From a virus: 37,609 bases of DNA. Shown here one piece after another: positions 484 to 37,590 of the stretch. The translations under genes were made by a program, and so were the position numbers. Under the pieces are notes generated by a model. That model was not told where the DNA came from, searched no databases, and saw only the letters and a list, made by a program, of their open reading frames with translations. The first letter of the stretch is position 1. Each line of letters begins with the position of its first letter. The stretch spans positions 1 through 37,609 of the IMG/VR virus record IMGVR_UViG_3300047496_000347. One strand, 5' to 3'.

Positions 484-1401
484 CTATTTGATTTTAAGTT
501 TTCTTACTAAACCGTCGAGCTGGTCTTCAAAACCATTTTCGTTTAATTTAACTTCATGGTAACCCTGGCCATGGAGCGCGGTAAAACTAATCGCTTTTTC
601 CGAGATATTACACTCGTATCCGCTGTATTGCTCCCCGTTCTTAAACTTCTCGAGAGCTCTGGTTTTATTATTTGTAAGTCTATCTATTTTAGGGTTTTGT
701 AGCATTTCTGCCAAGAGTTGATTCCATTTAAGTTTCATGTAGGTTGGTTTATGCACGTGTTTCTGCCAAAAATGATGTTTGTGAGCAAATTTAAACATTG
801 CCCGAACTTTGTCTTCCCCGTGATTTTTTAACATAGCACCCATCGCAGATTTCTGCTGTTTGGTGTCTTTTAGCGAATCTTGATCGAGTTCAGGTAAAAT
901 TGAAAGAAGTGAAGATTTAAAATCAGCAAGGAGCGAAGCGACTTGCGGGTCTTCTTGTTCTTTCTTCTTTATTTCTTTATTTCTTGTTCTTTCTTCTTCG
1001 TCGTTGCTCAGTCGTTGTTCAGTCGTTGTTCGGTCGTTGATTCGGTCGTTGATGATGTTTGAATTTATATCGTAAATATCTGAATTTATTAACTTTACCT
1101 TTGTGCCTGAGGTCGTTGATCCAGTCGTTGAATTTTTGCGAGTTCTGTTTGTCTCGACAATATTGATAAAATTCATTTGACACAACTTAGCTTTTGCAGT
1201 GCGATATTCTTGTTCAGTAAATTTTAATGTTTTCCAATCACCAATATAACATTCTCCAATTTGTAAACCATCGGGATTACCATCATATCTTCGAGCGCGG
1301 ATTGAAATTAAAGTTAGTAAAAGAAATGCATTAGGATGTTTTTGAAGTAAATATTCTGTATCTTGAGATCTTTTGAGTTTTATGAAACCATTATCTGACA
1401 T
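484..1401 (-). CDS. phage replication initiator, lambda O type
   Basis: 305 residues. Residues 1-100 look like the winged-helix domain found at the N-terminus of phage initiators: GFIKL start, helices with LLTLISIRARR, a GECYIGDW turn, a recognition-helix-like FTEQEYRTAKAKL and a wing ending in TKVKLINSD. A low-complexity charged linker (about 110-150) follows. A C-terminal domain then has the FWQKHVHKP...KWNQLLAEM signature common to RepO-like proteins. The linker DNA carries the iteron array at 1000-1132, as lambda O carries ori. An in-frame TTG lies 6 bp upstream (1407) with AAGGA close by; the ATG at 1401 is preferred but not certain. It probably melts the origin and recruits the host helicase; no phage helicase or polymerase is visible. 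Confidence 0.75.
   Translation of the reverse strand: MSDNGFIKLKRSQDTEYLLQKHPNAFLLLTLISIRARRYDGNPDGLQIGECYIGDWKTLKFTEQEYRTAKAKLCQMNFINIVETNRTRKNSTTGSTTSGTKVKLINSDIYDINSNIINDRINDRTTTEQRLSNDEEERTRNKEIKKKEQEDPQVASLLADFKSSLLSILPELDQDSLKDTKQQKSAMGAMLKNHGEDKVRAMFKFAHKHHFWQKHVHKPTYMKLKWNQLLAEMLQNPKIDRLTNNKTRALEKFKNGEQYSGYECNISEKAISFTALHGQGYHEVKLNENGFEDQLDGLVRKLKIK
1000..1132. repeat. iteron array in the initiator gene (candidate replication origin)
   Basis: The heptamer GTCGTTG (CAACGAC on the coding strand) starts at 1000, 1011, 1022, 1033, 1045, 1112 and 1124. Spacing is 11, 11, 11, 12, 67 and 12 bp, close to one helical turn. Because 11 is not a multiple of three, the repeats fall in different codon frames, so the repetition is in the DNA and not the protein. 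An AT-rich stretch (1054-1110) separates the two clusters, and a strongly strand-biased pyrimidine/AT tract (about 955-999) flanks the array. This matches the lambda-type origin: initiator-binding iterons inside the initiator gene next to an easily melted segment. Confidence 0.75.
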
Positions 1402-17266: not shown

Positions 17267-17464
17267 TTACTTTTTTCTGGCTTCTTCGATAGCACACAGA
17301 CGTCCATGAAAATCTTTCATTTCTTTATTAATTTCATCCTTCCAACCTCTTACTTCAACTTCAAAAGCTTTAATATCCGATCTCAACCAAGAAATAAGTG
17401 CAATATTAGCACCAATTATTGTAACAACAGTTCCTGCCCCTGTTAATATTATTGTTCCATCCAT
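17267..17464 (-). CDS. one-TM coiled-coil protein of the DFHxRLC family (65 aa)
   Basis: A transmembrane helix (about residues 5-27) is followed by a charged coiled coil and the signature DFHGRLCAIEE at the C-terminus. This is the same plan and ending as the 29952, 30205 and 30443 proteins. AGGAG lies 7 bp before the ATG. It stands alone, against transcription, inside the virion gene cluster, so it is a stray member of the 30-35 kb paralogue family (a moron-like cassette). Role unknown: small one-TM phage proteins include holins, antiholins and exclusion proteins. Confidence 0.7.
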   Translation of the reverse strand: MDGTIILTGAGTVVTIIGANIALISWLRSDIKAFEVEVRGWKDEINKEMKDFHGRLCAIEEARKK

Positions 17465-29951: not shown

Positions 29952-30203
29952 TTACTTATCCTTCATGATTTGGAGATATCTTTCTTCCAAAATACATAAA
30001 CGAGCATGAAAATCTTTCATTTCGTTTTTTATTTCATTTAATATAATATTGACAGCTCGAATGTCGGCCCTGGATTCACTTCTATTCCATATGAAGAGAC
30101 CTACAACGGTTCCAAGCATAGCGAGTATTAATCCAATGTTTACACCAGCTAATGTAATAATTTGTGTCCAATCCATACTAGTCACCGCTCCTTCAATAGT
30201 CAT
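29952..30203 (-). CDS. one-TM coiled-coil protein of the DFHxRLC family (83 aa)
   Basis: Membrane helix about residues 12-38 (WTQIITLAGVNIGLILAMLG...), then a charged coiled coil ending in MKDFHARLCILEER, the family signature. The first nine residues may be spurious: an internal start at 30176 gives MDWTQII, matching the MEW/MDW starts of the paralogues and with GAAGGAG 11 bp upstream. Part of the membrane-protein series; co-transcribed with 30205-30866. Confidence 0.7.
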   Translation of the reverse strand: MTIEGAVTSMDWTQIITLAGVNIGLILAMLGTVVGLFIWNRSESRADIRAVNIILNEIKNEMKDFHARLCILEERYLQIMKDK

Positions 30204-30204
30204 A

Positions 30205-30441
30205 TTATTCTGCCTTTTCTTTTCTATGGTCTTTTAACATACAACATTCTTTAGATGAAAATGCTCCCTCAAGTCTGCAAAGACGGCGGTCGATATCTAA
30301 TACCAAGTTTTTTAATTCAGTGTGATCAGTCTTCATATCTTGTTTAAGATTTCGCAAAAACATTCCTATTAAACCTAATAGCGTTATTAACAGACTGACA
30401 AGTGCAATTAATGTATCAGTTTGATTCCATGTAAATTCCAT
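30205..30441 (-). CDS. one-TM coiled-coil protein, divergent family member (78 aa)
   Basis: Starts MEFTWNQTDTLIALVSLLIT with a membrane helix (about 10-28), followed by a coiled coil with DIDRRLCRLEG, a diverged copy of the DFHxRLCxLEE ending, and a basic C-terminus with a Cys pair (SKECC). One base separates it from the neighbours on each side. Same overall plan as the 30443 protein. Confidence 0.7.
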   Translation of the reverse strand: MEFTWNQTDTLIALVSLLITLLGLIGMFLRNLKQDMKTDHTELKNLVLDIDRRLCRLEGAFSSKECCMLKDHRKEKAE

Positions 30442-30442
30442 A

Positions 30443-30694
30443 TTACTTCCTCTTTTCCTCTAATGAATACATACGAGCATGGAAGTCGCTCATCTCAATT
30501 TGAATTGATTTAATGATTTCTTTGGTTTCTTTACGCCATTCATCAATTTTTGTATTTGTTTCCTGACGGTAGCTGTCGATTTTTTTATCAGAACGATTGT
30601 CTATATGTATTACATATGCAACAATTCCACCGAATACTGCGCCAATTAATGCAAAGTTAGCACCAACAATAGCTAAAACATGAGTCCATTCCAT
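30443..30694 (-). CDS. one-TM coiled-coil protein of the DFHxRLC family (83 aa)
   Basis: MEWTHVLAIVGANFALIGAV leads into a membrane helix (about 5-27); a long charged heptad region (DKKIDSYRQETNTKIDEW) follows and the end is MSDFHARMYSLEEKRK, with Tyr in place of the family Cys. The longest coiled coil of the group. Packed one base from its neighbours, in line with one leftward unit. Confidence 0.7.
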   Translation of the reverse strand: MEWTHVLAIVGANFALIGAVFGGIVAYVIHIDNRSDKKIDSYRQETNTKIDEWRKETKEIIKSIQIEMSDFHARMYSLEEKRK

Positions 30695-31801: not shown

Positions 31802-31976
31802 TAGGCTTCTCCGGTAGCGGCATCCAGTATGTGACCCTCAATGGATACCCGTAATCATCAATCCATTTCATGTTATCATGCAAGCTTCCTATGATCATTC
31901 CTTCGTTTTCTAGATAACATATTACCCCTTCAAACTCTTCTGGCAATTTATCCTCAACGCTTATCCATTCGCTCAT
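31794..31976 (-). CDS. DUF551 protein, copy 1 (60 aa)
   Basis: MSEWISVEDKLPEE start and VTYWMPLPEKP end mark it as DUF551, in tandem with a diverged second copy (31598-31801). The middle regions differ strongly, suggesting an old duplication. GAGG 5 bp before the ATG; ATGA overlap with the upstream gene. Confidence 0.8.
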   Translation of the reverse strand: MSEWISVEDKLPEEFEGVICYLENEGMIIGSLHDNMKWIDDYGYPLRVTYWMPLPEKPNE

Positions 31977-32188
31977 TTATGCCTCTTAACTAGCTCATAA
32001 AACATGTGATAAAGCTCATCTGTCCGTTTAGATTGCTCAGCCTGCATTGCAGTCAAATGACGTGTCCAGTCTCTAAGCTCAGCTTCAATATGTTTAAATT
32101 TACTATTTAACCAGCCAATAAAAAATGCTATCAATGTAATCGAAACACCCAAAATTCCGGTAATAGCTCCTATCGTTGACCATTCCAT
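31973..32188 (-). CDS. one-TM coiled-coil protein (71 aa)
   Basis: MEWSTIGAITGILGVSITLI: membrane helix (about 5-27), then an amphipathic coiled coil ending RTDELYHMFYELVKRH. This ending matches RRVDQLYMMFCDLLKEQ of the 35144 protein, making the two a second subfamily beside the DFHxRLC proteins. Overlaps the next gene by 4 bp. Confidence 0.7.
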   Translation of the reverse strand: MEWSTIGAITGILGVSITLIAFFIGWLNSKFKHIEAELRDWTRHLTAMQAEQSKRTDELYHMFYELVKRHK

Positions 32189-34625: not shown

Positions 34626-34847
34626 CTATCTCTTCCGCTCTTTATCATATTCATGAAGCATCTCGTTTGCTCGGCGTTTATTTTCTCTTTCAAGGATTCG
34701 AGCTACGATAACGCTTGGCAATAGCTTAAAGGCTTCCGCCATATTATTATCCAGATCTTTGATATCTCTTCTGATATATTTGATTTGTGCTACAACATAG
34801 CCGGCAATTGCCCCAATAATTGAAAAGCAAATAAGACCCCAATCCAT
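34626..34847 (-). CDS. one-TM protein with basic coiled coil (73 aa)
   Basis: MDWGLICFSIIGAIAGYVVA forms a membrane helix (about 4-22), then charged helices (RRDIKDLDNNMAEAFKLL, ARILERENKRRANEML) and a KER-rich end. The same topology as the MEW-starting proteins, without their C-terminal signature. It sits between the two members of the 34317/34849 paralogue pair. Confidence 0.7.
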   Translation of the reverse strand: MDWGLICFSIIGAIAGYVVAQIKYIRRDIKDLDNNMAEAFKLLPSVIVARILERENKRRANEMLHEYDKERKR

Positions 34848-35388: not shown

Positions 35389-35790
35389 TTAAGAGGGGTC
35401 TTGAACGGCTTGTTCAAGCATCTGCTGAAATGGCTTTGAATTTAGATTGATCTGGATATTTTGGTTCTGACCCTGCTTGTCATTCCATCCAGAGAGGCTT
35501 TTCAGCGTGAACAGGGTAGCTACAACGTCTCGCTTCTGCAAAAGATCTTCAATCGACTGGTAGGATAGCTCACGAAGCCTTTCGTTCTCATGAATACGCC
35601 TCTTATCGTTCTCAATACGAGCAAGACGGAGTACTTCTTCAAGCTCAGGATATTTCTTGAGGCTCTCATAGACTGTATCTTTATGACATCCAAGCTTCTC
35701 TGCTGCATGTGCAATGATCCCACGACACTCTTTCAACGCTTCGGATATATCGTTTTTAGTTAATGCTAATGGTACGCCTTGAATTCCCAA
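35389..35790 (-). CDS. terminase small subunit-like DNA-binding protein (133 aa), TTG start
   Basis: N-terminal helix-turn-helix, ISEALKECRGIIAHAAEKLG then CHKDTVYESLKKYPELEEVL (about 14-55), matches the DNA-recognition domain of many phage small terminase subunits. A helical oligomerisation part (ENDKRRIHENERLRELSYQS) and the typical DVVATLFTLKSLSGWND segment follow. No in-frame ATG fits; TTG at 35790 has GAGAGG 6 bp upstream. It is on the opposite strand and far from terL. A transcription regulator with the same HTH is possible. Confidence 0.65.
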   Translation of the reverse strand: MGIQGVPLALTKNDISEALKECRGIIAHAAEKLGCHKDTVYESLKKYPELEEVLRLARIENDKRRIHENERLRELSYQSIEDLLQKRDVVATLFTLKSLSGWNDKQGQNQNIQINLNSKPFQQMLEQAVQDPS

Positions 35791-35849
35791 ACAAACCTCT
35801 CGTATAATCGTTTAAAATAATATCTACAACACAACGAAATTTAAGGCAA

Positions 35850-35880
35850 GAAAAAGCCCGCACTTTGCTAATACGGGCTA
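35850..35880 (-). terminator. intrinsic terminator (minus strand) upstream of terS
   Basis: AGCCCG/CGGGCT (35855-35860 with 35874-35879) and a 13-nt loop; on the minus strand five T follow. It sits upstream of the TerS-like gene and would stop leftward transcripts arriving from 37 kb, so TerS must have its own promoter within 35791-35850. The plus strand lacks a T-run. Confidence 0.6.
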
Positions 35881-35983
35881 GTCTTATCAACCCAGATATC
35901 AATGAGACTGTGGTGAATATATGATAAATAAGGATTTTAGGCAATATCAAGTTTCTTTTTGTAAAATTTAAGAAAGGTTGTGT

Positions 35984-36012
35984 TTGCGTTAAATTTGCTA
36001 ATTTGCTATATT
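35984..36012 (+). promoter_or_regulatory. promoter candidate for the 36055-36833 genes
   Basis: TTGCGT (35984-35989), 17 bp, TATATT (36007-36012), in the AT-rich gap before the first plus-strand gene. Same -35 box as in the other early promoters. Confidence 0.5.
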
Positions 36013-37275: not shown

Positions 37276-37590
37276 TTAGAATGGAAGAGGTTCGACCTCG
37301 ATTTGCTCAAAAGCATCTAATTGTTTAAATTCTGGTTCTTTGGGTAGGGTGGCTATGTAAGATTCGAGGGCTTCGAGGACTTTCTTATCAAAGATGTCCT
37401 TTGTTTGTTTTTCTTCGAATTGCATGTAAGCAAAATATTTCTTTTGGCCGCCATCTTCATATTGGCGTGAAGGGAAGCTTATCCAGCGATGAGAGCCTTT
37501 TTGAAAAAGGGTCATATCGCGTAGTATGATATTGCCCCACTTAGGAATTTTGAGTGAAAACGTTGCGAGAAGTGAATTTTTGTTAATTGG
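37276..37590 (-). CDS. SpoVG-like protein, 3' part (gene crosses the contig junction)
   Basis: C-terminal part of the gene that begins at 120-118 (see the entry at 1-120). Residues through the SPS/PSR core (WISFPSRQYEDGGQKKYFAY) and the helical tail (EKQTKDIFDKKVLEALESYI) up to EPLPF are here. A start at the internal ATG (37513-37515) would remove the first strands of the fold and has no ribosome-binding site. The frame leaves the repeat in the artefactual last 19 bases. Confidence 0.6.
   Translation of the reverse strand, partial: PINKNSLLATFSLKIPKWGNIILRDMTLFQKGSHRWISFPSRQYEDGGQKKYFAYMQFEEKQTKDIFDKKVLEALESYIATLPKEPEFKQLDAFEQIEVEPLPF
37492..37590. repeat. 99-bp direct terminal repeat, right copy
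   Basis: Identical to 1-99; see that entry. The two copies show the sequence closes on itself. Confidence 0.95.

Follow-up and report, generated by a model that had tools for sequence, protein, structure and literature searches.

Can repeats that lie within the coding sequence of a viral gene form the origin at which that virus replicates, and is it the protein encoded by the same gene that recognizes them? This question is raised by an O-like gene in the DNA analyzed here (hereafter the window, an IMG/VR virus record in its entirety, 37,609 bp), where copies of the heptamer GTCGTTG are found beside AT-rich DNA and where a first-pass annotation had placed a lambda-type origin with a specificity of its own. 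To our knowledge, the origins of most phages have not been mapped.

The genome and its predicted initiator

Because bases 1-97 recur at 37492-37588 as a 97-bp terminal repeat, the molecule is, to judge by its ends, either a circle or terminally redundant, its unit being ~37.5 kb. At the very end of the record, 21 bases form the reverse complement of a stretch close to the start of the record, and this inverted end is probably an assembly end or artefact. The cumulative GC-skew has its minimum near 35.5-36 kb (35500-36000), which is ~2.6 kb from the repeat array round the circle. The window also encodes small proteins that look like paralogues of one another, at least six in number and all on the minus strand; they have a hydrophobic N-terminal helix, and several of them also have a tail like EMKDFHARLCxLEE (Table 1).

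Of the two candidate start codons of the O-like gene, the ATG is more likely than the TTG, given the Shine-Dalgarno-like AAAGGA at 1412-1417 ahead of it. The gene product is predicted to be a winged-helix replication initiator. Specifically, the AlphaFold model of its N-terminal domain (residues 1-113; pLDDT 79.7, pTM 0.74) is a winged helix, and the best viral fold matches of this domain include phage proteins annotated "Replisome organizer"; the fold matches in the PDB are mostly winged-helix regulators, all of them weak (E 0.12 or worse), and a sequence search of the PDB returned no relative of the protein. The C-terminal helical region, a putative helicase or loader contact, has weak matches to PHROG 2357 (E 8.5e-4) and PHROG 391 (E 0.017); a relative, that in L271, matches both strongly. 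The protein as a whole matches the O-like/DnaD-like PHROGs 391, 277, and 2514 weakly (E 0.006-0.02), and the relative in L271 matches the same three at 1e-28 to 2e-34. The window protein has no match to Pfam Phage_rep_O (PF04492), a family that lambda O hits at 5.7e-36. Over its N-terminal part it shares 47% identity with gp71 of Vibrio phage 1.177.O; gp71 has a hit to PHROG 678 ("replication initiation O-like", 1e-13), and its gene overlaps, and lies directly before, that of a DnaB-type helicase. In the window itself no match to DnaB or DnaC was found anywhere, and the gene next to the initiator, where lambda has P (the helicase loader), encodes an 87-aa protein without family match.

Table 1. 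Coordinates of the features in the window.
Feature	Position	Strand	Remarks
Iteron 1 (CAACGAC in gene sense)	1124-1130	minus	wing codons; synonymous-codon covariation at this site
Iteron 2	1112-1118	minus	wing codons
Iteron 3	1045-1051	minus	exact GTCGTTG
Iteron 4	1033-1039	minus	exact GTCGTTG
Iteron 5	1022-1028	minus	exact GTCGTTG
Iteron 6	1011-1017	minus	exact GTCGTTG
Iteron 7	1000-1006	minus	exact GTCGTTG
AT-rich spacer	1052-1111		73% AT; separates iterons 3-7 from iterons 1-2
Candidate unwinding element	946-995	minus	70% AT; 86% purine on the gene strand; 18-nt repeat inside
Initiator gene (O-like), 307 aa	484-1407 (open frame)	minus	ATG at 1401, TTG at 1407
N-terminal winged-helix DNA-binding domain (predicted), residues 1-113	1063-1401	minus	AlphaFold, fold matches
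Predicted recognition helix, residues 63-75, starting E63-Q64	1177-1215	minus	AlphaFold
C-terminal helical region	664-813	minus	resembles C-terminal part of O-like/DnaD-like initiators
Next gene, 87 aa	212-475	minus	without family match
Small paralogous-looking proteins	17267-17464, 29952-30203, 30205-30441, 30443-30694, 31973-32188, 34626-34847	minus	

An array of 11-bp units within the gene

The seven copies of GTCGTTG that the first-pass annotation reported in the O-like gene are indeed there, all of them exact, spanning 1000-1130 with steps of 11, 11, 11, 12, 67, and 12 bp. They read CAACGAC in the sense of the gene and occupy all three of its reading frames. The whole window holds 10 copies of the heptamer versus 2.0 expected, a number reached in 0 of 100 shuffles. 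When the protein is held fixed and its synonymous codons are permuted, a mean of 0.43 copies is obtained and none of 5,000 permutations exceeds 4; under either codon null, no other 7-mer gets seven copies within 150 bp. Elsewhere in the window, an equal repeat density is seen only in simple CCACCAC runs, and there is no second array in the genome. Apart from the 67-bp step, the reported steps of 11-12 bp hold. The true repeat unit is ~11 bp (CAACGACYGA-N in gene sense) rather than 7 bp.

Could the repeats be a by-product of a low-complexity, N/T/D/R-rich linker, with no function at the level of DNA? The linkers do share NDR/TT/QRP-like peptides, and an 11-residue period in the protein is what an 11-bp unit produces when all three frames of it are read. 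The earlier argument that the step is not a multiple of three applies to the 11- and 67-bp steps and fails for the two 12-bp steps; protein repetition is thus excluded by step length only for the former. It is the codon permutations, which preserve the protein and never yield the array, that count against such an origin of the repeats, together with two further tests given below.

AT-rich DNA had been noted beside the repeats and is found on both sides of the main group, namely in the spacer and in the candidate unwinding element of Table 1. In 32 of 34 genes the AT content after the array is above the synonymous-shuffle mean. Purine bias was considered as a signature of the AT-rich tract and dropped, as at 0.75 versus a codon null of 0.72 it is barely higher.

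Conservation in relatives

Relatives were sought from both directions. Viral contigs were scanned for three spaced heptamers, on DNA only and blind to protein, and this returned contigs that encode homologues of the window protein with an array in the same place, as well as arrays in other initiator types. In the reverse direction, a search with the single full-length protein gave no relatives and alignments of the N-domain were required; the genes fetched with these were retrieved blind to the iterons. The positions of the repeats in the gene, whose conservation among relatives the first-pass annotation had wanted searched, are identical to the base in close relatives (gene positions 269, 281, 348, 360, 371, 382, and 393), which also keep the 67-bp step between the two groups of iterons. 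Genes that keep the amino acids of the linker and lose the repeats were looked for among the iteron-blind relatives and did not occur.

Among lags of 5-22, 11 bp is the best self-match lag in all 25 iteron-blind genes (mean identity 0.59), and in each of the 25 it lies above the synonymous nulls (p≤0.03), which is the second result against the repeats arising from the linker peptide. Distant relatives retain an 11-bp array with a different unit, changed in most copies of one phage. The C-terminal part varies between relatives, and hence the N-domain, linker, and array travel as a unit. The gene after the initiator encodes a DnaC-like loader in L246, L258, L304, and L295, DnaB in L265, and a primase in L263. 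In two relatives (L251:2-1069 and L262:3998-4930) the segment coding for the wing and the iterons looks tandemly duplicated within the initiator gene.

Two residues track two bases of the iteron

The iteron unit of a given gene tracks the first residues of its recognition helix, in the motif T-63-64-x-Y-R-T-A. Residue 64 goes with the first base, Q64 being found with AAC in 29/29 genes and R64 with GAC in 6/6 (35/35 overall), and residue 63 goes with the fourth, R63 being found with AACC in 12/12 and E63 with a fourth base that is G or A (35/35 overall). By helix type, EQ is found with AACG in 16/17, the exception being L270 with AACA, ER with GACG or GACA in 6/6, and RQ with AACC in 12/12. 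The RQ gene of L304 and the EQ gene of L248 illustrate this in one comparison, as they have the same array with mainly a G to C change in every copy. Among all columns of the N-domain, only residue 64 is a perfect predictor of the first base and only residue 63 of the fourth. The retrieval patterns restricted these columns to E/R and Q/R and did not select their pairing with the bases; for the tree and column tests, the bases were read from aligned arrays and the register was inferred.

The first iteron lies in the codons for the wing and offers a view of the same covariation at synonymous positions. It is mostly TCA-ACG (Ser-Thr) in EQ genes and mostly TCA-ACC in RQ genes, and in ER genes of the same wing type it is TCG-ACG. 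In the 34 genes compared, the base before ACN is A in 28/28 with Q64 and G in 6/6 with R64 (Fisher 7e-7, inflated by relatedness), and the third base of the Thr codon is G in 21/22 with E63 and in 0/12 with R63 (Fisher 2e-8, likewise inflated by relatedness). The switches are thus between Ser TCA and TCG and between Thr ACG and ACC. Codon preference was considered as their cause and rejected, as it runs in the opposite direction (in R64 genes NNG elsewhere is 0.18 versus 0.42). That the bases switch at synonymous positions along with recognition-helix residues is the third result against a mere linker by-product, and barring alignment error that explanation is refuted by the permutation, lag, and synonymous tests; we give it virtually no weight.

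On a tree built with the specificity residues masked and the wing omitted, the helix type changes at least 10 times. Independent pairs on well-supported branches are consistent in 5/5 and 3/3 cases, which makes 8 pairs with neither test alone reaching p<0.05. The one oddity in the core family is L270:3165-3929, which has an EQ helix, iterons of the form GCAACAGGCCA (AACA, not AACG), and a wing site GCA-ACG. Outside the core family, L079 has an ER helix with CAACGAC, against the rule. Since many of these changes leave the protein unaltered, the covariation is most simply read as selection acting on the DNA site, and there is strong computational evidence that the N-domain of the initiator reads the repeats.

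The wider family of initiators

A wider set comprises 66 further distinct phage initiators of the "LSEQ-VRT" winged-helix kind. Among lags of 8-25, lag 11 is the best in 50 of the 66, and 43 of these have p≤0.05. Among resolved cases, AAC accompanies Q64 in 50/50, and GAC is the majority form in 11/15 with R64, the other four holding both (Fisher 1.5e-9 for the Q/R rule). When applied to this set, the residue-63 rule did not hold. Named phages with 11-bp arrays of CAACGAC or TAACGAC include Pseudomonas phage UFJF_PfDIW6 and Moraxella phages.

Such arrays, again at 11-bp steps, are also seen in DUF1376 (PF07120) genes (L274:3644-4444 and L273:3623-4450), namely those of UFJF_PfDIW6, between cII and dnaC, and of Moraxella phage Mcat13. 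This suggests that DUF1376 may be an origin-binding initiator domain. Initiators like the Lin1244/Lin1753 N-domain type with 11-bp GTCGTTG arrays were seen in L105, L078, L081, L065, L040, and L032. A repeat-pattern scan of genome contigs was set aside, as it gave mostly 12- or 13-bp coding repeats that are unrelated, and an extension to TP901-1 rep was dropped, its best lag being 15, within the null range, with no 11-bp array.

The CAACGAC unit is also present in initiator genes whose N-domains are of other kinds, DUF1376 among them, and this could mean that a different factor, from the host or another phage protein, recognizes the sites and that the initiator merely contains them. We consider this very improbable, because exactly two columns of the N-domain follow the bases over repeated independent changes and these are the two with which the recognition helix begins, and a host factor is not expected to follow those residues. 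We think there is a reasonable case, on balance a favorable one, that a large class of phage initiators (the core family, the "LSEQ-VRT" kind, and perhaps DUF1376) shares a single type of origin, in which 11-bp iterons, one to each turn of the helix, are encoded in the linker together with a readable residue code. In this code Gln or Arg at residue 64 would correspond to A or G and, in the core family, Glu or Arg at residue 63 to G or C, such that the origin sequence would be predictable from that of the protein and both would change specificity jointly.

A proposed origin and mechanism of initiation

We propose that the array at 1000-1130 and its AT-rich flanks are, with high probability, the replication origin of the phage, located inside its own initiator gene; the region 946-1130 is the most likely origin because the covariation indicates that the N-domain reads the repeats. 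The idea of an origin with its own specificity, put forward in the first-pass annotation, is supported by the position and geometry of the array, by the loader and helicase neighbors of the gene in relatives, and by the AT-rich tract, and its main support comes from the way in which iteron and recognition helix covary.

Alternatively, the repeats bound by the initiator might serve mainly as an operator for autoregulation or copy control, and replication might begin at another place. Covariation indicates binding and not the firing of an origin, the GC-skew minimum lies away from the array, and plasmid iterons also function in copy control. However, the array is in the middle of the gene, far from the position of a promoter, the adjoining AT-rich tract persists in relatives to a degree that the amino acids do not call for, and the genome is without a second array. 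Moreover, the origins of lambda and SPP1 are at the same place in the gene (PMC6316719, PMC7466680). An operator as the chief role is, in our judgment, unlikely, at a small fraction of the probability that we assign to an origin.

In the mechanism that we propose for such an origin, winged-helix monomers would line up along the major groove, one for each turn of the helix, where Gln64 would read A or Arg64 would read G and where Glu63 or Arg63 would set the base three positions on. Gln-A and Arg-G are the usual protein-DNA contacts. The resulting nucleoprotein complex would strain and open the AT-rich tract at 946-995, and the C-terminal region would recruit the helicase, which we assume to be host DnaB (and the loader likewise to be that of the host) since neither DnaB nor DnaC was found in this phage. 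Because the linker-coding DNA doubles as the binding array, the initiator and the origin would be inherited together and would be able to switch specificity together.

Should the code hold, the initiator gene by itself would be enough to read off the origin and its specificity in many phages that have not been isolated, and replication incompatibility between phages could be predicted. A change of specificity in a self-contained pair of initiator and origin, with sites that overlap coding sequence, would be directly testable, and a natural series of protein and site pairs, few residues and few bases apart, is already at hand.

Comparison with known systems

Searches of the open-access literature yielded no account of a class of 11-bp iterons or of a two-residue code, which is weak evidence of absence. 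The origin of Francisella phage KIRK is putative, being a prediction only, and it is compared here by description; no specificity code is given in the description consulted. The likeness to lambda ori/O is that the iterons are in the middle of the initiator gene, between the DNA-binding and C-terminal parts, beside an AT-rich tract, and that loader or helicase genes follow the initiator, here in relatives only. The difference lies in the iterons, of which lambda has four, each of 18 bp and spaced at 20-24 bp, whereas the units here are 11 bp and in tandem. Hence, of the term "lambda-type" we retain the layout and the probable mechanism, and not membership of PF04492 or the 18-bp iterons. Lambda O is a dimer (PMC7466680).

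Salmonella phage P22 is similar in that its annotated origin is within an O-like gene, gene 18, and a DnaB-type gene comes next, but the best repeat lag in gene 18 is 24 bp and the repeat sequence is unrelated. In SPP1, oriL consists of direct repeats within gene 38 and an AT-rich unwinding element, and is bound by gp38 (PMC6316719). The layout and the probable logic are shared with the present locus, the repeats of SPP1 being compared by description, and the likeness to SPP1/DnaD-like replisome organizers extends to the "Replisome organizer" fold matches of the N-domain; SPP1 differs in having a second origin, with no second array here. The closest named relative of the N-domain is gp71 of Vibrio phage 1.177.O, which has an 11-bp array in the same place and differs in its iteron, ACAGGCAAGCG, matching the ER helix of gp71.
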